A stretch of 32,361 nucleotides of DNA, taken from positions 1 through 32,361 of IMG/VR virus record IMGVR_UViG_3300044632_000685; one strand, given 5' to 3'. Under the pieces are notes generated by a model. The model saw only the letters and a program-made list of their open reading frames with translations. It was not told where the DNA came from and did no database searches. Source of the DNA: a virus. Shown piece after piece: positions 1 to 32,361 of this stretch. Made by a program: the position numbers and the translations under genes. Positions within the stretch are counted from its first letter, which is position 1. Each line of letters starts with the position of its first letter.

Positions 1-127
1 GAGGAACAGGGGTTCCAGTTGGAGTTGGAGTTGGAGGAACAGGGGTTCCAGTTGGAGTTGGAGTTGGAGGAACAGGGGTTCCAGTTGGAGTTGGAGTTGG
101 AGGAACAGGGGTTCCAGTTGGAGTTGG
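1..127 (-). repeat. 33-bp tandem repeat coding for an 11-aa Pro/Thr unit
   Basis: Units start at 33, 66 and 99, with a partial unit 1-32. They are identical in sequence until divergence at about base 128. Each 33-bp unit encodes PTPTPTGTPVP on the minus strand and preserves the frame. Such perfect DNA identity points to recent expansion and makes length change by slippage or recombination likely. Confidence 0.95.
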
Positions 128-622
128 CGGTTCGAGTTCAACCGATGATAAAGAAAACCCTAATACCAAAGATCCTGTATTATAATAATACAATGTAAAA
201 TATTCATCATTTATAGTAGATAATGTACATTTTTGTGTGACATATAACGATGGAACATCACTAGCAATTAAATTCGTAGTAGTTATTCCTAAATTACAAT
301 CATAAAAATCGGCTGGATTAAAATTATTTTGAAGAGTAAATCCATCCAATCCATCTATAAAAAATTTAAAATTGTTTACTAATTCATCAACAGTAAAATA
401 ATAATTTTCTTGAGAATTTAAATTCATAACAAAACCATTATTATCAATTGTTACATATATGGGATTGTTATTTTTTTGAACAAAAATATTTTTGAGATAA
501 TTTACAATATCGTTTAAAGTAGTTCTAAATTCAGCAGAACCATCATTCTTGTAACCAACCAAAAAATCGCCGCTCAGTAAAGAAGATTTAGAATCAAAAT
601 CAGTAAAATTAATAGATGCCAT
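1..622 (-). CDS. Tail-fibre-like protein with Pro/Thr repeat linker, 3' end outside window
   Basis: An open frame starts at ATG 622 (MASINFTDFDSKSSLL) and stays open to the left edge, about 207 codons. The N-terminus carries GDFLVGYKNDGSAEFRTTL (residues about 18-36), which resembles the start of the fibre-like protein at 29898. Residues about 37-160 are β-rich with no recognised domain. From about residue 165 the protein becomes an 11-residue repeat, PTPTPTGTPVP, encoded by a 33-bp tandem DNA repeat that continues past the edge. By analogy with the other linker proteins here, a C-terminal tag or globular domain probably follows outside the window. A perfect T4-type late box TATAAATA lies 8 nt before the start. 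Role in the virion surface or tail fibre is inferred from neighbours and architecture; the exact function is unknown. Confidence 0.75.
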   Translation of the reverse strand, partial: MASINFTDFDSKSSLLSGDFLVGYKNDGSAEFRTTLNDIVNYLKNIFVQKNNNPIYVTIDNNGFVMNLNSQENYYFTVDELVNNFKFFIDGLDGFTLQNNFNPADFYDCNLGITTTNLIASDVPSLYVTQKCTLSTINDEYFTLYYYNTGSLVLGFSLSSVELEPPTPTGTPVPPTPTPTGTPVPPTPTPTGTPVPPTPTPTGTPVP

Positions 623-671: not shown

Positions 672-2204
672 TTAAACTTTTCCAGTTATTGAATATATAT
701 TTGAAATATTTGATTGAATCCTAAATAAATCTTTTCCAGAAATTGTTTTTAAACTTTTTCCAGATATTGAATATATGTTATTTTGAGTTCCTTCTGGGGT
801 AGGGGTAGGTGTTGGTGTTAAAGTAGGAGTTACCGTAGGTGTCGGTGTAAGAGTAGGAGTAGGAGTTACCGTAGGTGTAGGTGTCGGTGTAAGAGTAAGA
901 GTAGGTGTTGGTGTAAGAGTAGGTGTTGGTGTAAGAGTAGGTGTTGGTGTAAGAGTAGGTGTTGGTGTAAGAGTAGGTGTTGGTGTAAGAGTTACCGTAG
1001 GAGTTAAAGTTGGTGTAGGAGTCGGAGTAACATGGAAAACAAATAAACCACTATTTCCACATTCTTTACATTCTAAACCTTGTGCGTCTGGATACGCACT
1101 AACCATTGGTAATTGTTTATCTTTACTTAAAACACCATAACCAGCTTCGTTTTCTATTATTACGTCGATATAACCAGTTTTTTGCGGTATTTGGGGAAAA
1201 TCAAAACTTAAAAAGTTTTCATTATATAATGTAAATTCTGGAACAACTATTCCCCTAAAGGCAGGGTATTTATTTGCCATTTTAGGTATTGCTGAAAATG
1301 GATGAAAAAAACTAACACCATTAAACATTTCTTCGTTAGAAGAACTTAAATATACATTTTTAACATCGAAAAATGATTTACCATATATATCAATTTTTGG
1401 TAAATTTATATTTCCCAGTTGATTGTAACCCAAAATCATACACGGTTCCAAGTTTCTAGGTTGAGGTCTAGCAGAAATAGTAACAGTTTCAGTATAAAGT
1501 TCATCAACATCTTTCAGTAATTGTTCATTACTTTCTATAGCAGAAAAATCAGCGTTTATGACATATATTTTTCTGTAAATTTCATCTATTTTTTTAAACA
1601 ACCAACCTTTTATAGTAAAAGATGTATCTGCTGTTATTCTGTATGCTTGAGTTGGACCCGCATCATTTGGATATTGTAATGATATATTACCATTCCACAA
1701 AACCTCACTTCTTATTTCGTAAGGAACAAGTGAATTTTCTAATGTTGGCGTTTTCCAAGATATTATAATATACGGATCACAATATGGAGCAAAATTTGAT
1801 ATAAGTTGATCCATATCATTTTGATATTTTGTTATCAATGTCATATTGACACCAATATTAATCGGTATTGGTTGTGGTATATTTTTTACAAAATCGGATG
1901 GTGTTATTGTTGTATTATATGGAACAACAAAACCATCGTTTTTATTAACAACTCTGGTTTGATCTCTAGATATGCCACCAATGCTTACTGCAATTGCAGG
2001 TACTGTTATTCCACCAGGTGCGGGGTTTTGTAAACTATTGAATATTCTTTGTTTTGGACCATAAACATAATTTACCTTAATATCATTGGGAGGAGTTACT
2101 ATGTTTTTTTGATTATCATATCTCTTGATAAGAACATCATTAAAAGCACCAACAAACTGTTCTAAAACTGTTTGGATTTCCCAATAAAACGTATAATTTT
2201 TCAC
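672..2204 (-). CDS. gp15: gp15-like tail terminator / sheath stabiliser with long decorated C-terminus
   Basis: Start is GTG 2204; no ATG lies in frame close upstream. Residues about 1-235 match the pattern of T4 gp15, which caps the tail tube and sheath and joins the tail to the neck: [11 protein letters not shown] near 21, [32 protein letters not shown] near 116-135, FAPYCDPYI, and [13 protein letters not shown] near 192-203. T4 gp15 is 272 aa; this protein is 510 aa. Residues about 250-365 look like a TIG/Ig-type domain ([21 protein letters not shown], then [15 protein letters not shown]). Two cysteines follow (ECKEC), then a Pro/Thr/Leu linker (about 394-470) and a 40-aa tail with [18 protein letters not shown]. 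The homology call is from memory of gp15 sequences. The extension is the odd part and suggests surface display at the head-tail junction. Confidence 0.72.
795..1027 (-). repeat. Pro/Thr/Leu linker with five perfect 18-bp repeats
   Basis: The whole stretch encodes alternating T-P. Bases 901-990 are five perfect copies of the 18-bp unit GTAGGTGTTGGTGTAAGA (plus-strand reading), coding TPTPTL on the minus strand. Flanking copies are degenerate. The DNA unit differs from those at 1-127 and 29313-29814, so each linker expanded separately. Confidence 0.95.
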
Positions 2205-20445: not shown

Positions 20446-23301
20446 ATGAGTAATAGATTTCACAATAAATGGCATAGAAAAAATCATCATACATACGGAA
20501 ATGCATCAAATCCTGATGCATCACACGACCCAATAGCTAGTCCAGATCAACCATTTTTAGGAGATTTTTCTATACAAGGCGCAATATCTTGCGTTGCTCC
20601 AGCCAGTGCATATGCAGGTTATTTCTTTTCTAATAACACAGCACTATGCGCATTAGCTGGTGATAGAGCAATGCTTGCTAAAAGTTTTGGACCAATTGGC
20701 ATACAGGTAGATTCTAAAAGCGTTGCAATAAGCGCATATGCACCAAATGTTGGTGTAAATGTTTATAGTTTACAACGCGCAATTTCAGCATATGGTGTAC
20801 AGAGAGGTGCTTATATAGGATCTAATGAAAGAGGTTTGCAAGTAAGTGCTGGTATAATTGGAACAGCTACAAATAGTCCTAATATCGCATTAAGCGCATA
20901 TGGTGAAAATTTTGGAGCGACAGTATATAGCCCATCCAGAGCAATTTCAGCATATGGTGGGCTTTTAGCATCAGAATTATATAGTTCTAATATAGCATTA
21001 AGCGCATTAGGACATAATTGTGCAATACAATCTTACTCCACTAATATTGCAACATCTTCTTTTGGTTACAAGGTTGGTGGGTTGAATTATAGCCATGACT
21101 TAGGCACTGGCACATGGGCCAATTTAATTGGACTATCTTCATATGGTGGAGTAAATGCAATTTATGCAACTAGTCCAAATGTAGCAATTTTAGCAGAAAG
21201 TAAAAATATCGCAATTGCTGCAAAAAGTACTGAAAAAACTGCAATTTCTGCATATGGTAGAGAAATAGGCATAGATACATCTGGTGATTATATAGGAATA
21301 AAATCATTTAGTAGTGGTGTTGGTGTTTCTGCTTATGGGGGGAAAACTGGAATTATCGCAATAAGTCCAACAATTGCTATATCGGCTTATAGCCCAGAAA
21401 AAGCATTACATATTGCTGGATATAGTTTATTTGATGGCAGTGTTACTATAACAGGAAACTTGTCAACATTAGGCGCTTTAACTTATTTGGACACGTATGT
21501 CCATATTACATCAGCATTAAGAGTTGAAAATATAGGAACCGGACCTGGTGTATGGGTAACTCAAAAAGGAACAGAAAATATAGCAGAGTTTTACGATGGA
21601 GACGAAGATCACGTTGCGTTGTTAATAGAAGATGGTGGAAATGTTGGAATAGGTTTAAATAATCCAGAAGCAAATCTTCATGTAGTAGACATAAACAACA
21701 ATTCTCACCCAGAAGTTCGAATTGAATCAAGAAACAATCTCTTTAATCCAACATTAAGATTAATGGGAAATGTTTCAACCGAAGGTTTTTCGATTTGGTC
21801 TGACAACGTAATCGGTGATACATATCTTAAAAATTTAACACCTAATCCGCAATTCAATAGAGGTATTAGTTTTGAAACTGCTGGTAATTCCGACGCATTA
21901 ACTATATTAAACGATGGAAAAGTTGGTGTTAATACGAAATTACCTACTACATCGCTCACAGTAAATGGAAATATTAGTTCCAATGGAGACATATTTTTAA
22001 ACACCTTTAAAAAAATTAAATTTGGAAATGAAGATCTTACAAAACCAGATGCTGGTTCTATTTCATTTGAATATATAGACGGCGGAAATGGAAAATTGTA
22101 TATTGACACATCAAATGTGGCAAATGAACCTATAGTTTTAAGACAAACGAGTAATGCAACAAAATATAACAGATTAGCAGTTACGGAAAATGGATTTGTT
22201 GCTGTTGGAAGTGAAATGCCCTCGAATTTTCAAAATATTCCTGCTCATTTATCTGTTTATGGTAATATATCATCATTTAAAGCGTTTGTGGCCGAAGATT
22301 TGTATTTTGGTACAGGGCAATGGCCAGATGTAAGATTATATAGATCTGCTCCAGATGTTTTAAAAACAGATGACAAATTTGAATTCGGTGGAGGAATTGA
22401 TGTTACAGGTATCGCAAATATAAATACATCACCTTCTCCTTGGGGTACTTATATCGGAAATACTGATGCCAATGCTGGTAACGTATATATACGTGGAAAT
22501 ACATACATTAACGATAGTGGTTCTAAAAGTACATATATCAATAGATCACCAAACACTGGTTCTGTAGCGATAGGAAACAATACTGGTAATGTTGAGCTAG
22601 ATGGTAATCAAATTAACATAAGTTCACCAAATTTAACATTAGAATCTAACGATTTAAGAATAAATGGAAACGCAACATTTAATAACAATTTAACAGTAAA
22701 TACATTATCTGGTGCTTATATATTCTTAACAACACCAACACCGTGGTCTGTAAACCCAGGACCATTTGATAGCAACGATAATCCAAAATTATTTATAGGT
22801 TCATCAAGTGCTCGTGCATTATCTGGTGTTGTTTTGAGTTATGACAAAAACAAAAGACATTTAAAATTTACATCTGAAGTTCGTAAACCAGTATCAGAAG
22901 GTGGTGCGGTAACAACAAATGAAAGTTTTATAATCACACCAGAAGGATATGTTGGTATAGGATTCGAACCATATGAAAAACTCGCAGTTGATGGAAATAT
23001 AATAGCATCCGGTAATATTACATCATATTCTGATGAAAAATTAAAAACAAATATTCATACCATAGAAAAACCTCTTGAGATGGTTTCCAAATTACGTGGT
23101 GTAAAATATGATAGAATAGATAACAAACAAACAAATATAGGATTAATAGCACAAGAAGTTGAAAAAATATTACCTGAAGTTGTTTTTGGGGATGATACAA
23201 AATCTGTATCTTATGGTAACATTGTAGCAGTTTTAATTGAGGCAATTAAAGAACTAAACAAAAAAGTTGAATATTTAGAAAGTAAAATAAATATGTCATA
23301 A
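20446..23301 (+). CDS. Tail fibre with AISAYG repeats and C-terminal S74 intramolecular chaperone
   Basis: A 951-aa protein. After an N-terminal His/Asn/Pro-rich segment (about 1-30), residues about 90-320 hold about 14 copies of a short β repeat of the form (I/V)-A-(I/L)-S-A-Y-G spaced about 17 residues apart, as expected for a trimeric β-helical fibre shaft. Residues about 330-855 contain phage-fibre phrases such as DGSVTITGNLSTLG, NVGIGLNNPEANLHV and KLAVDGNIIASGNI. The end is a Peptidase_S74 domain: SYSDEKLKTNIHTIEKPLEM with the catalytic Ser at about 861, GLIAQEVEKILPEVV and SVSYGNIVAVLIEAIKEL plus a closing coiled coil. The S74 domain folds the trimer and then cuts itself off before that Ser, so the mature fibre should be about 860 aa. 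The gene follows a 75-nt gap without a strong start-proximal promoter box. Confidence 0.87.
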   Translation: MSNRFHNKWHRKNHHTYGNASNPDASHDPIASPDQPFLGDFSIQGAISCVAPASAYAGYFFSNNTALCALAGDRAMLAKSFGPIGIQVDSKSVAISAYAPNVGVNVYSLQRAISAYGVQRGAYIGSNERGLQVSAGIIGTATNSPNIALSAYGENFGATVYSPSRAISAYGGLLASELYSSNIALSALGHNCAIQSYSTNIATSSFGYKVGGLNYSHDLGTGTWANLIGLSSYGGVNAIYATSPNVAILAESKNIAIAAKSTEKTAISAYGREIGIDTSGDYIGIKSFSSGVGVSAYGGKTGIIAISPTIAISAYSPEKALHIAGYSLFDGSVTITGNLSTLGALTYLDTYVHITSALRVENIGTGPGVWVTQKGTENIAEFYDGDEDHVALLIEDGGNVGIGLNNPEANLHVVDINNNSHPEVRIESRNNLFNPTLRLMGNVSTEGFSIWSDNVIGDTYLKNLTPNPQFNRGISFETAGNSDALTILNDGKVGVNTKLPTTSLTVNGNISSNGDIFLNTFKKIKFGNEDLTKPDAGSISFEYIDGGNGKLYIDTSNVANEPIVLRQTSNATKYNRLAVTENGFVAVGSEMPSNFQNIPAHLSVYGNISSFKAFVAEDLYFGTGQWPDVRLYRSAPDVLKTDDKFEFGGGIDVTGIANINTSPSPWGTYIGNTDANAGNVYIRGNTYINDSGSKSTYINRSPNTGSVAIGNNTGNVELDGNQINISSPNLTLESNDLRINGNATFNNNLTVNTLSGAYIFLTTPTPWSVNPGPFDSNDNPKLFIGSSSARALSGVVLSYDKNKRHLKFTSEVRKPVSEGGAVTTNESFIITPEGYVGIGFEPYEKLAVDGNIIASGNITSYSDEKLKTNIHTIEKPLEMVSKLRGVKYDRIDNKQTNIGLIAQEVEKILPEVVFGDDTKSVSYGNIVAVLIEAIKELNKKVEYLESKINMS

Positions 23302-23793: not shown

Positions 23794-25185
23794 ATGTTAT
23801 TATTCGAAAGAGAAATAAATCTAACAACATCAGTAAATGGATTGGTTTATACCAATTTTGCACCATTGGCATTATCTATAAATCCATCTAATTTAGTTGT
23901 TAACGGTAAAATACATAATATTGAATATATTTTCCCCGACGAAACAATAAATCAAACTTATTTTTATTCAACAACAAGTATTCCGTCGTTTCCTAGACCT
24001 AATGATATAGGTGATCCTAGAAACTATAAAATAAATAAAACTCTATATTTACCATATAATAAAACATCACACACATATCAATTAACTGCTAATATATATC
24101 AAATCGGTTATACTCAGCCTACACATATATCTTTTAAATTGAACTTAAATGCTCCGAAATTAGATGGATTGGTTTCTCCCTATTTTGATAAAGTTCATTT
24201 AACAAATACAAGAATTTTCGGCGTCGAAAATCATATATTATATGTTTTTGAAACAGAAAATCCCAATTATTATATACCATTTATAACAAATTGGGAAAAT
24301 AGACCAACACCAACACCGACACCGACACCAACAAAAATGTATAGACCTTATAAGATTTTTGAGCCTTATGAAGATCAAAGATTAACAAATGGATATGAAC
24401 ATATTGATTTTTACAATCAACAAGATGTTTATGATAAAGATGAAAATTATCCAAATTGCAAACCAGATTGGATAGTATTTGAGACTCCTGTTCCTACGGT
24501 TACGCCCACACCAACACCTACTAGAACACCGATACCGACAAATACACCTACACCAACACCAACTAGTACACCAAATCCAACAAATTCACCCACCCCAACT
24601 CCATCCAGAACACCAATACCAACAAATACTCCAACCAGAACACCAATACCAACACCTACATCAACACCAATACCAACACCTACACCAACACCGACACCTA
24701 CTGCTATTGTATTCTTGGCAGATTATATTGTTATAACGTATCAATTTGATTCTACAAATGGGTTAGATTTAGATTCAAAAACAAAACTAATTGCCCCAAT
24801 ACAATCAGATGTTGTTGGTTATTGTAAATCAAACGATGCTTCACCATATTTATATTGGGGTGGAGATAATGAAGGAACAGGAGTAGAATCCGCTTATGTG
24901 GACTTAACAAAGTTTAATGCAAATGCAGTTGTCCAAATTAATTGTGGAGGAGTTTGGTACAATCAAAGATTAAATGGCAATATGAGCATTGACATAAGAG
25001 CATATCTCGGCGGAACTATGGTATTGAACGGTTATGGTTTCCAAAATGTTGGAGGAACACAAACAAACTTCACATCATTTGCGGGTAATATTGCATTACA
25101 ATCAGGAGCTTGTAATGATGGTCAATTAGTTGGTGTTATATCTTATAACAAAGCAACAAACCAATTAACATTTACTCCATCATAA
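23794..25185 (+). CDS. Tail/fibre protein with two Pro/Thr linkers and a C-terminal β domain
   Basis: A 463-aa protein in modular form. Residues 1-170 are β-rich ([39 protein letters not shown]). A first short linker [10 protein letters not shown] lies at about 171-180. Residues about 181-230 are an acidic Tyr/Asp-rich segment ([20 protein letters not shown]). A second Pro/Thr linker of about 75 residues follows (about 231-304). Residues about 305-463 form a compact β domain starting [27 protein letters not shown] and containing [14 protein letters not shown]; its four cysteines may matter for stability. The C-terminal domain after a flexible linker is the likely exposed binding part; that is inference. 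No enzyme motifs seen. ATG 23794 chosen because a TAAGTATT box precedes it closely. Confidence 0.7.
24304..24333 (+). repeat. Short Pro/Thr linker
   Basis: Ten residues of strictly alternating P-T, coded by CCAACA/CCGACA hexamers. It is the first of two linkers in the 463-aa protein. Confidence 0.9.
24482..24705 (+). repeat. Pro/Thr linker, degenerate repeats
   Basis: About 75 residues of P-T with Ile, Arg, Asn and Ser interruptions (for example [17 protein letters not shown]). Near-identical sub-blocks such as AGAACACCAATACCAACA recur, but the array is more degenerate than those at 1-127 and 901-990. Confidence 0.9.
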
Positions 25186-25928: not shown

Positions 25929-28900
25929 ATGAACGTTTACAGTAAAGATTTATCTTCAGTTTTTTGCTACCCGATTAATTTTAATCTGATTGGCGATAAA
26001 TTAACTGTTAAACAAACTCCAATATTATTCGAAAATGGAGCATATTTTCATATTCATGAATTTTTAAAAAACGCTGAAGACAACAAATTCAACAAAAAAA
26101 CTGGTTTATTTTTAACTTCTTTGTTATCAGCAAAAGAAATTTTTATAGATAAAGAAACTCCAAAAGACAAAGAACCTATTATATCATTTTCAACGCCTTT
26201 AATCGATTCATCGTCTTATGTAATAAATCAAACATCCATCAACAATGTATTAAAATTAACAAAATCTAACGAAAAAACATATACAAAAGAAAACACTTTT
26301 ACTTTTACTTTTGATGATGAAAATGATGCAGTATTTATATCATATAGTAATAACAGTTATTTGACATATACAGAAGTTGGCGATTTATATTTTGATAACA
26401 TAATATCACCACCCTCGATTTATCAGATGTTTGATTATCTCATATCTGATAATAATATAATTTTTTTCACAAAAATTTCTAAATTCAAAAACATAATATA
26501 TTTTGATACGACAACAAATGTTTTTAAAGTAATAACATTGCCATTGTCGTTAAATTCACAAATACCTACAAATTCTATTTTTTATTTTACATCATATGAA
26601 AATAAAAATATTTTAAATGATAGTGTTCACAATTCATATATTGCCAGATATGAATCCAGTCCTCTTTTAAATCAAAAAGATATAATTCCAACTAAAGAAA
26701 GTTTAAAAGAAAATTATAAACAAAATTATCTGTCTTTTTTTCCATACGAAAATTTAAAATTTTCAGAAACAGATGTTACGTTTGATTTACAAATTCATGG
26801 ATTAAAAAATTATCAAACACCAGAATATAACTATTCAAGAGGATTTAATTATATTCCTAATTTTAAATCAATAAGAAGAGTATATAAAAATATATTTTCC
26901 GGAACAAATCAGTCAAATGGAACTGATAATTTATTCTTAGGGTTTAAATCTCAAACATACGAAAAGAAATTTCAACCAGACCAAGCAACAGTTTTTTATT
27001 TTCCACCAACAACAGAAAAAATACCAATTCATTATTCTGGATTGGTTGAAGATGGCGCATATGCTGGAGAGATACCATATACTTCTGATAGAGTTTATAC
27101 TAAACAAATAGATTATTCGGAGATACGACCAGGTCTTCCACAACCAGATTCTATAAAGCGATTAACCGGATCTTGGTTGTGTAGTTGGCTTTACAAAGCA
27201 CCATGGGGTGAATCAATTTGGATGGATAGATATTACAATTCATCATACTATACAATAGGACAAGCTTTAACTGCGTCATTGATGGTTTATAATAGAGATT
27301 TATATCCAGACGCAACATACGATGTATGGGATGAATATTCTAAAATGACACTAGAATCTGGTGTTAGATATTTATATTACAGGTCAGGACAACAAAATTC
27401 TAGAAATTTTTTGGAATACTTGGAAGAAGATTATCAAAATCCTTTGGGATCAAAATTAATCGATATAGAAGTTTTTAATTCATCACCATTAAAAGATATT
27501 TCCAAATACAAAAATGATGGTTTATTGTTATTAAACAAAGAAGAAAATTTAAAAACCGATTATTTGGTTTTAGATGGCACAAACCATGCAGTATTTCCTG
27601 CTAAAAATTCATTATTGGAACAAGATAATTTTACGATATCGTTGTGGTTAAAAGTAGATGATTGGGCAAACATAAACGGAAATCAAATTTTTGGAAATTT
27701 TTATGATAGTGGGTTTGGATTTATTAATGAAGCATCTTTAACTGCGCCATTACTAACAATAGTAGATTCAACCTCTGGAAATATTTTAAATCTTAATTAT
27801 AGATTAAATAAAATTGAAGAACTAGTCATTCCAAAAACTGAAAATTATCAAGAAAATTTTTTAATTCAAAGACTTATAAATTATACATATTGGATAATAG
27901 ATGCATATAATAGAAAATTGAGATTATATGGAGTAGAAGGTAAAATAATAAAGGAAGTTAATATATCAGGTAATATTGATTACATCGATCAGGTAGAAAT
28001 AGATTCTCACGAAAATTTATATTTTTACGATATAAAAAATAAAAAATTAGTCAAAATGTCTCAGTTTGGTGTTGTTTTAAATACCACAACTTACACAGAT
28101 CAATTCAAAAGAATAGAAATTGATTTAGACGATCAAGTAATTGGTTCATATGGAACATCATCAACCATAGATAACAACAACAATATGTGGGAAGTTATAG
28201 GTGGTAATTTGTATAAAAACAGACAGATATATGCAAATATAGGAGAGATACAACAAATAAACTGTGACGCATCCAACAATTTATGGATAGTTTATGCTAA
28301 AGACAAATTAACAAAATTAAATATAAACACAAATAATTTTGAATTTACAAAAAGTATAGGCAGAAATGTTTTAATAGATGAAGATTGTTTTAAATTTGAT
28401 AAACAATTTAGATTTTTAAACTTTATTAGAGCGCCGAAATCAAATGTTGGTTGTGATGAACTTAAAGATAGAAATGAAGATTTAACAGTTTTTGTTGATG
28501 ATTCTGATAAAATGTTATATCTATTAAACTCTGATGGAATTTTGGTTTCAAAAGTAAATTTATATGGATTAATAACTACAGACTTAGGAGCAATAACAAC
28601 AGATCATAAATTTAAAGCACTCGGAGATTTTAGCAGTTACCAATATTTGAGAAAATATGGTGTTTTAGAAAAAAACTTAAGTTGGAAATTTAAAATAGCC
28701 GAAACTAATGGTTCTGATGGTCAGATTTTATCTTTAAAATATGATATAAAAGATTTACCACCTGGATGGCATAATTTTACTTTCACTTTTAACAGTACCG
28801 ACGGAATAGCAAAATACTACATAGACACATTTTTAGTAGATAGCGTAAGTTTCGATTCTGGTAGATATCAATTATATTATAATTTTAAAACGTCATTTTT

Positions 28901-29885
28901 ATTAGGTGCTACAAATATAAGAAATACAACTTTAAATGATTTAATTAAAGTTGATGATGCATATAAATTAGTTGGAGAAATTGGTAGAATATTGATGTAT
29001 AAAAAAACCTTAACGCAGGGTGAAATTGAACAAATATATTATTCATCGAATTTATCAATAGATAAAGGACCATTGCGATGGAATTTAGTCGTGGGCGAGA
29101 GAAACTACGTAGAAGAAGTTAAACATTGGTTTCAAATGCAATTGCCATCAAATAAAAGCAAATATTACAATATCAATATTCATAATTTAAATGCAAGTGA
29201 AGAAATTAGACAAACAATAGAACAAGCATTGCGTCAAAACGTTAAAAAGATAACTCCAGCACATGTAGATTTATATAAAATAAATTGGTACGATAAAGTT
29301 GTTAAAATTATACCAACACCAACACCAACACCAACTCCTACTGCAACAGAATGCATTAAAATACAAATACCAACACCAACACAGACACCAACAGTTACTC
29401 CTACTCCATTACCAACACAGACACCATTTCCAACACCATCACCATCACCAACATCAACACCGATACCAACACCTGAGCCTACACCATTCCCAACAAGAAC
29501 ACCAATACCAACATCTCAGCCAACACCAACATCAACACCGATACCAACACCTGAACCTACACCGTTTCCAACAGGAACTCCGGTGCGTACTCCGCTTCCT
29601 ACAAATACACCAACACCATCGCCAACACCTGCTGAGACACCATTCCCGACACCATTCCCGACACCATTCCCGACACCAACATCAACACCTGTACCAACAC
29701 CGAATCAAACTCTCACACCAACAGCAACACCTAAACCGACAGCATCTCCAACACCTACACCAACACCGACAGCATCGACAACACCAACGCCAACACCTAC
29801 TCCATCACCAACAAAAGGAATTATAACATTCGAGGATGATCAAATACAAACATTTGATTCTCAAGATTTGTATCCATTTCAATGA
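25929..29885 (+). CDS. Large tail protein: LamG-like domain apparently split by a β-propeller, Pro/Thr linker and C-terminal tag
   Basis: A 1318-aa protein. Residues 1-520 are structural sequence of unknown fold, with an aromatic-rich middle ([20 protein letters not shown] at about 414-433). A LamG-like jelly-roll begins at about 540 ([29 protein letters not shown]). It seems interrupted at about 606-905 by a propeller ([75 protein letters not shown]) and then resumes ([56 protein letters not shown]). A helical region (about 1060-1125, [20 protein letters not shown]) comes before a Pro/Thr linker of about 168 residues. The last 22 residues are [20 protein letters not shown] and flanks, similar to the tail of the gp15-like protein. 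A carbohydrate-binding role for LamG is family knowledge. Confidence 0.7.
29313..29814 (+). repeat. Long Pro/Thr linker with nested DNA repeats
   Basis: About 168 residues of P-T with regular Phe, Ile, Ser and Glu substitutions. Two levels of repetition are visible: a 78-bp (26-aa) unit, copies starting near 29446 and 29524 ([15 protein letters not shown] in both), and a 12-bp unit (PFPT) repeated perfectly three times near 29639-29675. One non-repeat island (ATECIKIQ) interrupts it near the start. Confidence 0.92.
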
Positions 29886-29897: not shown

Positions 29898-30338
29898 ATG
29901 TCAGTAAAATTAAATGAATTTCAAACAGCAACAACCATAAGTCCAAATGACCATATTGTTGGTTATTCTGTCGCATCCGCAGACGGCGAAAGACGTTGGA
30001 CTTTTCAATCTTTATTAAATTCAACAACAGAAACTGCACAATCTCCAGTTTTAAAAACTGCTAGTTTTTCAATTACTAATAAAGATCATAATAAAGTTTT
30101 TTTAGCAAACTCTACAAGTACAATAATAGTTACACTACCAGCAAATATAAATTCTGGTACTGATATAAGTGTCATAAGAGCAAATACAGGTGCAGTAAAT
30201 TTTGCTGCTGGTGCTGGTGCAACAGTTAAAAGCGCACCAGATTCTACTTTTGTGAAATTAGGTTTTCAGAATTCTATAGCAGGAGCTATTTGTACTGGTA
30301 ACAATACATGGTATTTGTTTGGTGATTTAATACCATAA
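29898..30338 (+). CDS. Small fibre-like protein with shared N-terminal segment
   Basis: A 146-aa protein. Residues about 1-42 (VKLNEFQTATTISPNDHIVG, then YSVASADGERRWTF) resemble the N-terminus of the partial fibre at 622: both have an Asp/Ser turn, VGY, a short Ala/Gly/Ser loop, E-x-R and a Thr. The rest (about 50-146) is a β domain with VFLANSTSTIIVTLPANINS, ISVIRANTGAVNFAAGAGAT and WYLFGDLIP, a pattern typical of small phage fibre-tip or capsid-decoration domains. It sits directly before the gp38-like adhesins; 1 nt separates its stop from the next ATG. Probably a tail-fibre component; the exact role is not known. Confidence 0.68.
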   Translation: MSVKLNEFQTATTISPNDHIVGYSVASADGERRWTFQSLLNSTTETAQSPVLKTASFSITNKDHNKVFLANSTSTIIVTLPANINSGTDISVIRANTGAVNFAAGAGATVKSAPDSTFVKLGFQNSIAGAICTGNNTWYLFGDLIP

Positions 30339-30368
30339 AATGCTTAATCGTTTTTCCAGTTGGTATAC
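30335..30368 (+). repeat. 34-bp direct repeat, copy 1 (5' end of adhesin gene A)
   Basis: A 34-bp stretch containing the start codon and the first nine codons of the first adhesin gene is repeated without mismatch at 31629-31662. It marks the duplicated gene start and gives a short region for homologous exchange. Confidence 0.95.
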
Positions 30369-31239
30369 TGTAATAATAAACTTAACAACAAGAACAAATG
30401 TTAATGTTTACAATTTAATTACATCAAATTCGCAATGGACAAACACTAGTAAAAAATTAAGAGCACTCATTACAATACCGGAAAACAACACAATTTATTC
30501 TACATCCACATCAACACCAGCAATAACAATACCAAATCAATTTAGATATTATGACAGAATAACAATTATAAATAATGGAACTATAGTTGGTGCAGCTGGC
30601 GTTGGAGGTACGGGTGGTAGAGGTAAAACATCACCAAACGGATCAGCAGGAGGAGTTGGTGGAACTGCTTTGTTAATACAAAATAATATATTTTTAGAAA
30701 ACAATGGACTTATATCCGGAGGCGGTGGAGGAGGCGGTGGAGGAGCAGGTTACTATTATACAACACAAGGGGCACAAGTAAAAAGTTGTTGTAATGCAAG
30801 TAATTGTGACGATTGTCCTGTTAATCTTTTAACTTCAGCGTATGGTGGACCAAATTATTGGGGAGATACTAACAACTATACATGTTCTTGTGGAGTTGGA
30901 AGTTGCACTGGTTTTTGTAATCCACCTTGCTGCGATCCAACACAAACTGGATTAGGTGGATCTTATTGCGTATGTTACGTTTTAAACAAATTTTATGGTG
31001 TTGGCGGTACTGGAGGCGCAGGAAGAAGTTTGAATGCTGCTGGAGCGGGAGGAACCGGAACATTGAGTGCAGCAAATGGAGGAAATGGTGGTGGTTATGG
31101 AGCATCTGGATCTAATGGATTGAATACTACACAAGGAACCGGAGGAACTGGTGGTTTAGGTGGATATTATATAGTAAGACAAAATGGTGCAAATTATATT
31201 TTATCAGGATCTGGTTCTTTTTTAGGAAGATTGCAATAA
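30340..31239 (+). CDS. gp38-like glycine-rich adhesin A with cysteine-rich insert
   Basis: A 299-aa protein. Residues 1-80 form an N-terminal domain (MLNRFSSWYTVIINLTTRTN, then YYDRITIINNGTIVGAAG). Residues about 80-130 are glycine-rich runs (GVGGTGGRG, SGGGGGGGGGAG). Residues about 147-225 are an insert with 12 cysteines (SCCNASNCDDC, CSCGVGSCTGFC, PPCC, YCVC). Residues about 228-278 return to Gly-rich motifs (GVGGTGGAG, GAGGTG, GGNGGGYG, GTGGTGGLGG), and the end is IVRQNGANYILSGSGSFLG. Gly-rich motifs around variable loops are the hallmark of T2/T6/S16 gp38 tip adhesins, in which polyglycine-II helices form a sandwich and the loops bind host receptors. The cysteine-rich insert is not known to me from that family. 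A near-identical gene start recurs at 31634. Confidence 0.75.
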   Translation: MLNRFSSWYTVIINLTTRTNVNVYNLITSNSQWTNTSKKLRALITIPENNTIYSTSTSTPAITIPNQFRYYDRITIINNGTIVGAAGVGGTGGRGKTSPNGSAGGVGGTALLIQNNIFLENNGLISGGGGGGGGGAGYYYTTQGAQVKSCCNASNCDDCPVNLLTSAYGGPNYWGDTNNYTCSCGVGSCTGFCNPPCCDPTQTGLGGSYCVCYVLNKFYGVGGTGGAGRSLNAAGAGGTGTLSAANGGNGGGYGASGSNGLNTTQGTGGTGGLGGYYIVRQNGANYILSGSGSFLGRLQ

Positions 31240-31244
31240 ATAAA
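31237..31244 (+). promoter_or_regulatory. Candidate late promoter box TAAATAAA
   Basis: AATAAATAAA overlaps the adhesin A stop codon and ends 5 nt before ATG 31250. Confidence 0.3.
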
Positions 31245-31249
31245 ATAAT

Positions 31250-31627
31250 ATGAATGATATTAATAACGAAATTCAAATAATAATAGAAAGTTATGATGAA
31301 ATTAATAAATCTATAATTTTTAAACCTTATATAGATGGTTTAAAAAAAACTATAGATCATTATGAATCGTATAGTTTTGATTTAAAAAATTGCATACAAG
31401 ACGAGGATCTTTTAAAAACATTAGGAAAAATATCAAAACCAATATTGGAAAAACTTATTGATAATGAAAAAAATGATGTTGTTGAACCTTTAGACACGTT
31501 TATTAAAAACAATTTAAATAAAAAGTTAAAAATAAATAGCAATGAATTAGAAGAATTTGCAGCACCTGTAGAATTTACGACATCCGTTCAACCGATTACT
31601 TCATCTTTATTAACTTTTATTTTATAA
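31250..31627 (+). CDS. Small helical protein between the two adhesin genes
   Basis: A 125-aa acidic, strongly helical protein (IQIIIESYDEINKSIIF, LKKTIDHYESYSFDLKN, LLKTLGKISKPILEKLIDN, DTFIKNNLNKKLKINSNELE) with a short hydrophobic C-terminus. No glycine-rich or β fibre sequence. It lies 10 nt after adhesin A and 6 nt before adhesin B. A fibre assembly chaperone or adhesin-specific partner would fit this position, but no motif proves it. Family not recognised. Confidence 0.65.
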   Translation: MNDINNEIQIIIESYDEINKSIIFKPYIDGLKKTIDHYESYSFDLKNCIQDEDLLKTLGKISKPILEKLIDNEKNDVVEPLDTFIKNNLNKKLKINSNELEEFAAPVEFTTSVQPITSSLLTFIL

Positions 31628-31628
31628 A

Positions 31629-31662
31629 ATAAAATGCTTAATCGTTTTTCCAGTTGGTATAC
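31629..31662 (+). repeat. 34-bp direct repeat, copy 2 (5' end of adhesin gene B)
   Basis: Identical to 30335-30368 over 34 bp. Downstream the two genes diverge gradually at DNA level while protein similarity continues for about 80 residues. Confidence 0.95.
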
Positions 31663-32361
31663 GGTAATTTTAGATTTGACTACAAGATCAAATGTAAATT
31701 TATACAATTTTATAACATCAAATTCTAAATGGACTAATACGAATAAAAAATTAAGAGCATTTATTACTATACCAGAAAATAACACAATATATGGAACTAC
31801 CGGTTCTCCTGCTATTTTAGTTCCAAATAATTTTAGATATTTTGATAGAGTATATATTATAGTAAACGGAAAGGTTTCCGGACATGCTGGCGCAATAGGA
31901 GCAAGAGGTTGCGGTGCTACAGATGGAAGCGATGGGGGAGATGGAGGAACGGCAATACGATTACAATCGCCAAGTTACGTATCAGTAACAACTCTCGGAT
32001 CTGGCATTGTCCAAGGTGGTGGCGGTGGTGGTGGCGGCGGCGGTGGTTACACGTATATTGCTTCAGGAGAACAGTGTTGCCGATGTAATAATGGTTGCGG
32101 AAATGCTTTTACTTGTGATGGTCAAAGTGGATGCTATGTACCTGGTATTGTTTGTGCGGGTTATTGGAAAGATGAATATGAATGCAAAGATGGAGGATCT
32201 ATAGCTACTTGCTGTGTTGCTTATTCATATACAGTCAATAATTGTGGTGGAAATGGTGGATCTGGAGAAGGATATAATTTGTTACCAACAAATGGCCTCA
32301 CAGGACAAGCACAGTGCGGAACTGGAGGAAACGGAGGACTTTTTGGACAAAATGGAAATAA
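31634..32361 (+). CDS. gp38-like glycine-rich adhesin B, 3' end outside window
   Basis: An open frame from ATG 31634 to the right edge (242 codons and two bases) without a stop. The N-terminal 80 residues (MLNRFSSWYTVILDLTTRSN, then FRYFDRVYIIVNGKVSGHAG) match adhesin A at most positions. Glycine runs follow (GSDGGDGGTA, QGGGGGGGGGGGY). The insert carries 12 visible cysteines (QCCRCNNGCG, FTCDGQSGC, IVCAGYW, YECKDGG, ATCCVAY, NNCGG, AQCG), with spacing unlike adhesin A, then GTGGNGGLFGQNGN at the edge. So the frame and scaffold are conserved while the insert is different, as expected for duplicated receptor-binding proteins diverging in specificity. The host receptor is unknown. Confidence 0.75.
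   Translation, partial: MLNRFSSWYTVILDLTTRSNVNLYNFITSNSKWTNTNKKLRAFITIPENNTIYGTTGSPAILVPNNFRYFDRVYIIVNGKVSGHAGAIGARGCGATDGSDGGDGGTAIRLQSPSYVSVTTLGSGIVQGGGGGGGGGGGYTYIASGEQCCRCNNGCGNAFTCDGQSGCYVPGIVCAGYWKDEYECKDGGSIATCCVAYSYTVNNCGGNGGSGEGYNLLPTNGLTGQAQCGTGGNGGLFGQNGN

Follow-up and report, generated by a model that had tools for sequence, protein, structure and literature searches.

Tandem GP38-like adhesins with cysteine-rich inserts in a T4-like phage

The viral DNA analysed here (IMG/VR record IMGVR_UViG_3300044632_000685, 32,361 nucleotides, hereafter the window) ends in two glycine-rich adhesin genes, A and B, each with a cysteine cluster, and a small gene, A', between them (Table 1). Both adhesin reading frames named in an earlier note on this sequence are present, B being cut by the window end, and glycine makes up 21% of each product. 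The two proteins are 59% identical across their first 165 aa, and their insert regions are dissimilar. The earlier note had suggested obtaining sequence past position 32361. This was found in a second viral contig, L003, which shares 3007 bp with the end of the window (1 mismatch in 2022 bp aligned), and which was the only return from single-protein and two-row scans of viral contigs. L003 completes the locus as adhesin A, small gene, the whole of adhesin B and a second small gene (B', 116 aa). A' and B' are paralogous (38% over 77 aa). Because L003 shows adhesin B followed by this paralogous small gene, the locus contains two copies of an adhesin and small gene unit, arranged as a tandem duplication. 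The small gene, previously taken for a sole gene between two adhesins, therefore has a counterpart, and each of the two follows an adhesin of its own.

Table 1. Features of the adhesin locus (aa, amino acids; AF2, AlphaFold2; VIA, structural alignment).
Feature	Position in window	Strand	Basis or remark
Short fibre-tip gene, 146 aa, anchor-like N-terminal segment and C-terminal tip domain, probable adhesin docking partner	29898..30338	+	
34-bp repeat copy 1, across adhesin A start	30335..30368	+	sequence identity to copy 2
Adhesin A, GP38-like polyglycine-sandwich receptor-binding protein, 299 aa	30340..31239	+	PF05268, AF2 model, VIA
Cys-rich insert of adhesin A, residues 136-219, 12 Cys	30745..30996	+	distal loop after long glycine motif
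Small adhesin-associated gene A', 125 aa, probable assembly partner	31250..31627	+	paralogue behind adhesin B in L003; homologues behind GP38-like adhesins
34-bp repeat copy 2, across adhesin B start	31629..31662	+	sequence identity to copy 1
Adhesin B, truncated by window end, 242 aa visible	31634..32361	+	complete = 282 aa at L003:2280-3128
Cys-rich insert of adhesin B, residues 139-204, 11 Cys	32048..32245	+	without detectable relation to other insert types

Adhesin A matches PF05268 at 26.5 bits (curated cut-off 25), and 11 of 17 adhesin family members match it at E<=0.01. The window-visible part of adhesin B gave no PF05268 match at E<=1; adhesin B aligns with the scaffold of A throughout. 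The AF2 model of A, built from a 38-sequence alignment, has a mean predicted local distance difference test score (pLDDT) of 86, exceeding 90 across most of the scaffold, and predicts a beta-helix with a polyglycine sandwich. The top three Foldseek matches of this model were PP01 and S16 gp38 (E 1.4e-9 for PP01, 6e-6 for S16), the rest having E 0.48 or worse. VIA-align placed it on S16 gp38 (6f45_D) with Z 20.8 (2.4 Å, 190 residues) and on 9v85_A with Z 20.2, the next fold scoring 7.0, and the glycine motifs of A align to S16. In profile comparison, hhalign joined the adhesin family to S16/T2 gp38 (93% over 103 columns); a sequence search of the PDB with a family-only profile (A5) did not recover gp38, and the PDB match of profile A6 to gp38 is partly built in, its alignment including a T-even-like row (L214). 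The gp38-like polyglycine scaffold proposed in the earlier note is thus backed by the predicted structure of A, and computationally both scaffold and insert position are well supported. The S16-type N-terminal docking domain of three helices and three tryptophans was not seen in A, whose model has one N-terminal helix (23-30) and aligns structurally to S16 gp38 only from S16 residue 37. For this reason adhesin A is, on its predicted structure, GP38-like rather than a strict T-even gp38.

The 12 cysteines of adhesin A all lie within residues 150-212. The same number had been counted in B, where in fact 13 are visible: 11 in the insert, one before it and one after. Cysteine makes up 0.63% of the other structural proteins, and the probability of at least 12 in 86 residues is ~4e-13; the clusters are far above chance. 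In the 38-sequence alignment the insert fills the loop that follows the long glycine run; the corresponding loop of most other GP38-like proteins is short. In the A model the insert forms a long antiparallel ribbon (strands 138-153 and 207-221) bearing a head of pLDDT 50-75. The expectation that the cysteines lie in exposed loops therefore holds, alignment and model both placing the insert in a distal loop. Weak resemblances of the A head to flavivirus E proteins (Z ~2.5) were treated as noise. In gp38, the polyglycine sandwich bears five variable loops distally; in PP01 gp38, OmpC cross-links to loops D and E, and the part that loop B plays in adsorption has been studied (PMC12892980; PMC6851490). 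The alignment suggests that the A insert begins at the loop-B position, the loop letter being our assignment.

Relatives were found in two ways. A degenerate pattern for the conserved core 'N-x-G-x-I-x-GGGGGG' sampled ~110 GP38-like genes in viral contigs, and two of the contigs reached were syntenic relatives with tandem Cys-rich adhesins. A scan with a conserved neighbouring gene gave ten loci, of which one (L274) is the contig of L208 and nine are clearly syntenic: eight with tandem adhesins A and B and one (L273) with B only. One further pair is found in L249. Since the adhesins of L270, L271 and L272 are identical, independent cases are fewer than contigs. Every adhesin copy in the syntenic relatives has a 10-12 Cys insert at the same site, so that homologues combining glycine-rich and Cys-rich parts, which the earlier note had proposed to look for, exist in these nine contigs and in the L249 pair. 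Among eight distinct type-A inserts, cysteine is invariant in 10/10 columns, compared with 11/69 other columns (Fisher 2e-7); for the relatives' type-B inserts the figures are 12/12 and 34/65 (Fisher 1e-3). The A gene of L268 (4339-6459) and L275 (4364-6484) encodes two fused GP38-like modules separated by a Calx-beta-like stretch, with a 12-Cys insert in each; the second module has exactly 12 Cys in an insert unrelated to the first. Cysteine is absent from 85 of 108 other GP38-like loops, and a single one of the 108 has as many as 9. By sequence, the dense Cys head is thus a hallmark of the syntenic group, with smaller parallels elsewhere (L156, L165, L161, L235). These carry 4-9 Cys in the same loop, and differ from the window in loop length and content, either 26 aa and 4-6 Cys or 112 aa and 9 Cys, with no relation to the window inserts detected. 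The short, Cys-packed version (4-6 Cys) is found at L156:275-1180, L165:3333-4238 and L161:8-889 (CFTQCRQVGCCEQRCDTAC). Separately, an unrelated viral contig, L116, encodes two paralogous repeat-rich proteins of 24-26 Cys, with many Cys in glycine-rich repeats.

Four mutually unalignable insert types occur at this one site, namely A, B, window-B and that of the second L268/L275 module, with pairwise alignments not clearly better than shuffles. The window A insert is homologous to the relatives' type A (81.5 bits vs 29.5 for the best shuffle); the window B insert had no match better than shuffles to A, B or the fourth type. A tree on scaffold columns places window A and B as sisters inside the A clade with 99% SH-aLRT, although long branches drew a warning from the program and scaffold gene conversion would be indistinguishable from duplication. 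The simplest reading of these alignments is that a head was replaced, or diverged past recognition, on a duplicated scaffold. The relatives show variation at the other end of adhesin B as well. Their adhesin B has LRR-like (leucine-rich-repeat-like) C-terminal repeats, and behind these its end is either a Cys-rich tail (8 or 10 Cys) or an unrelated, Cys-free one, with L268 (6559-8547), L269, L270, L275 and L276 on one side and L249, L273 and L274 on the other. Judged from sequence, the B tail differs by exchange too.

In all syntenic relatives a fibre of 690-707 aa immediately precedes the adhesins. The C-terminus of that fibre is 42-48% identical, over ~100 aa, to the C-terminal domain of the short gene directly before adhesin A in the window, so that the order tip domain, adhesin is conserved in the window and its relatives. 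The N-terminus of the short gene resembles that of the gene at 2-622(-) (Smith-Waterman score 46, reached by 0/1000 shuffles). In the window phage this tip domain stands apart from the long fibre (20446-23301), fused to an anchor-like N-terminus and located ~6.6 kb further on beside the adhesins; the adhesin cassette occupies a different place than in the relatives. We infer that the adhesins cap the fibre tip encoded upstream, as gp38 caps gp37.

The earlier note took the small protein for a helical, adhesin-specific chaperone. An association with adhesins stands: A' belongs to a small-gene family found behind GP38-like adhesins elsewhere (27.5 bits vs 7.3 for the best of 500 shuffles), whereas B' alone matches this family weakly (6.5). 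The purely helical description does not, the low-confidence model (pLDDT 56) showing beta strands first and then helices, with no usable fold match. The A' family aligns with another small-gene family (hhalign 72% over 95 columns), and a third, only weakly similar to that of A' (hhalign 10%), has PF16778 (Phage_tail_APC) in two members, L198 and L151. A' and B' had no Pfam match at cut-off, PF16778 and the tail fibre assembly (TFA) domain included. Both genes, like their homologues, lie directly behind a fibre or adhesin gene. A small same-strand gene directly follows 50/100 sampled GP38-like adhesins, many of them in recurring families; as small genes are common in phages, these families weigh more than the fraction itself. 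On this comparative evidence the small gene is somewhat more probably than otherwise an assembly partner of its adhesin. Examples of the recurring families are L198:851-1300(-), L258:11465-11932 and L199:7440-7757; one family corresponds to phrog_27733 and another includes PF16778, and they look like a general adhesin partner set.

The locus is real and represents a variant, shared across the lineage, of an adhesin type already known, to which we add by inference disulfides, receptor contact and a role for the small gene. Its sequences and the A model make it fairly probable that it encodes a disulfide-stabilised, exchangeable receptor-binding knob on a gp38-type pair of tip adhesins with an assembly partner. 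According to this proposal, the tandem adhesins would sit on the fibre tip made by the upstream gene, and the Cys-rich head, carried by a long distal loop on a predicted antiparallel beta-ribbon, would be the receptor-contacting surface. Most head cysteines would pair as disulfides that replace a hydrophobic core, with oxidation after lysis. Specificity would diversify in two ways, by exchange of entire heads while the scaffold is conserved and by duplication of the adhesin along with its small partner gene, which probably aids folding or assembly. More tentatively, one may speculate that the phage group keeps a set of unrelated heads, each with roughly six disulfides, that fit into a single loop of the polyglycine scaffold. 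Such heads would be the phage equivalent of knottin-type binding domains and would finish folding through oxidation once released from the cell.

Disulfide knots and metal binding had both been envisaged for the cysteines. The former gain indirect support from the invariance described above and from paired gain and loss: beyond the ten type-A cysteines there is an extra pair in window A, another in the L249-like group, a third in L268/L275 and none in L276. This pattern is no more than suggestive of disulfides, as it rests on few independent events and parity alone would give it about 1 in 16 times (a rough estimate). Metal is kept as a rival: a zinc or metallothionein-like cluster would stabilise the head and be compatible with folding in the reducing cytosol, CC, CxC and CxxC motifs are frequent in the inserts, and 12 cysteines could form three four-Cys sites. 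Nevertheless, the inserts are nearly devoid of histidine (0-2), the extra cysteines come and go by twos rather than fours and cysteine spacing differs among insert types, and we consider metal binding unlikely. That the head instead serves as a cap, structural or protective, or attaches to a different virion protein, with other loops contacting the host, would fit a Cys framework that is conserved rather than hypervariable within each type; the alignment of the head loop to a receptor loop of PP01 gp38 (PMC12892980) and the unrelated heads on sister scaffolds make this quite unlikely.

The disulfide-stabilised knob has its own difficulties. The cytosol in which phage proteins usually fold is reducing, and disulfides would have to form by oxidation at a later point. 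The A model resolves no disulfide in its low-confidence head, and the total of 13 cysteines in adhesin B is odd. That no S16-type docking domain was seen also weighs against it, as does the small gene, for which the searched contigs of the syntenic relatives gave no homologue, whether here or at another position. As for how heads change, the earlier note saw a two-gene receptor-switching locus in which recombination at the 34-bp start, or between copies, alters the expressed head. The repeat is exactly as described, and over the first 36 nt window A and B agree at 34 positions, each agreeing with relatives at 9-13; sister scaffolds bearing unrelated heads would also fit. However, both adhesin genes are intact, each with its own start, and the two overlapping contigs revealed no exchanged allele, the window and L003 being identical over the locus save one synonymous base. 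We read the shared start as a docking end kept alike within the genome, a common requirement that explains it equally well, though it could also be a recombination site. We consider switching very unlikely, and the pattern of heads across relatives points to evolutionary module exchange rather than a switch.

The T-even gp38 proteins (S16, T2, PP01; PF05268) share with the window adhesins a beta-helix with a polyglycine sandwich, variable distal loops and a gene right after the fibre-tip gene. They differ in that one distal loop of the window adhesins carries a Cys-rich head of 66-86 residues, compared with ~10 residues in S16; the window also has tandem copies and a separate small gene, with no three-helix, three-Trp docking domain seen. 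The Hafunaviridae host-range locus also consists of a glycine-rich adhesin followed by a small protein, a pair that tracks host range, but these are archaeal viruses with one adhesin, and cysteine is not mentioned in the text of that paper (PMC8651126). In Pam3, fibre gp24 has a glycine-rich receptor domain and is accompanied by a small chaperone gene, gp25, whose product is beta in its N-terminal half and helical in its C-terminal half; unlike the window's small genes, gp25 has a TFA-type C-terminal domain (PMC9608196). A literature search on cysteine-rich or disulfide-bonded tail-fibre proteins found nothing relevant. Known gp38 adhesins vary by short loops, whereas here the variable element is a whole Cys-framed domain that keeps ~12 cysteines while its sequence is replaced. 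If the proposal is true, the adhesins would be a natural, stable loop-grafting scaffold, and the question arises by what route a phage forms disulfides when no oxidising compartment is at hand.

Genes nearby in the window encode a baseplate wedge of T4 type (gp6), a tail sheath stabiliser and the long fibre, whose C-terminal region resembles that of many tail fibres; the adhesins belong to a T4-like myovirus, with gp6 only ~23-28% identical to that of the closest named phages. Searches of 50,697 phage records by tblastn with the adhesins and small gene gave no match, for the A N-terminus even with the E limit raised to 10, and bacterial and archaeal genomes scanned with a neighbouring gene yielded no relative. 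A DNA pattern of a glycine run plus CC matched mostly unrelated frames, and huge-phage records reached via a helicase were rejected, with no synteny around it and no adhesin-family match. The collection searched holds no close isolate of the window phage, and in such a group the Cys head offers a testable host-range module. Long Pro-Thr repeats (TPTPTP...) occur in the structural genes at 23794-25185, 25929-29885, 672-2204(-) and 2-622(-), and homologues of the 25929 gene in the relatives match only to ~residue 1126, just ahead of these repeats. Downstream of the adhesins, L003:3521-6394 encodes a large protein with a von Willebrand A-like domain slightly below the Pfam cut-off and a homologue in L269.
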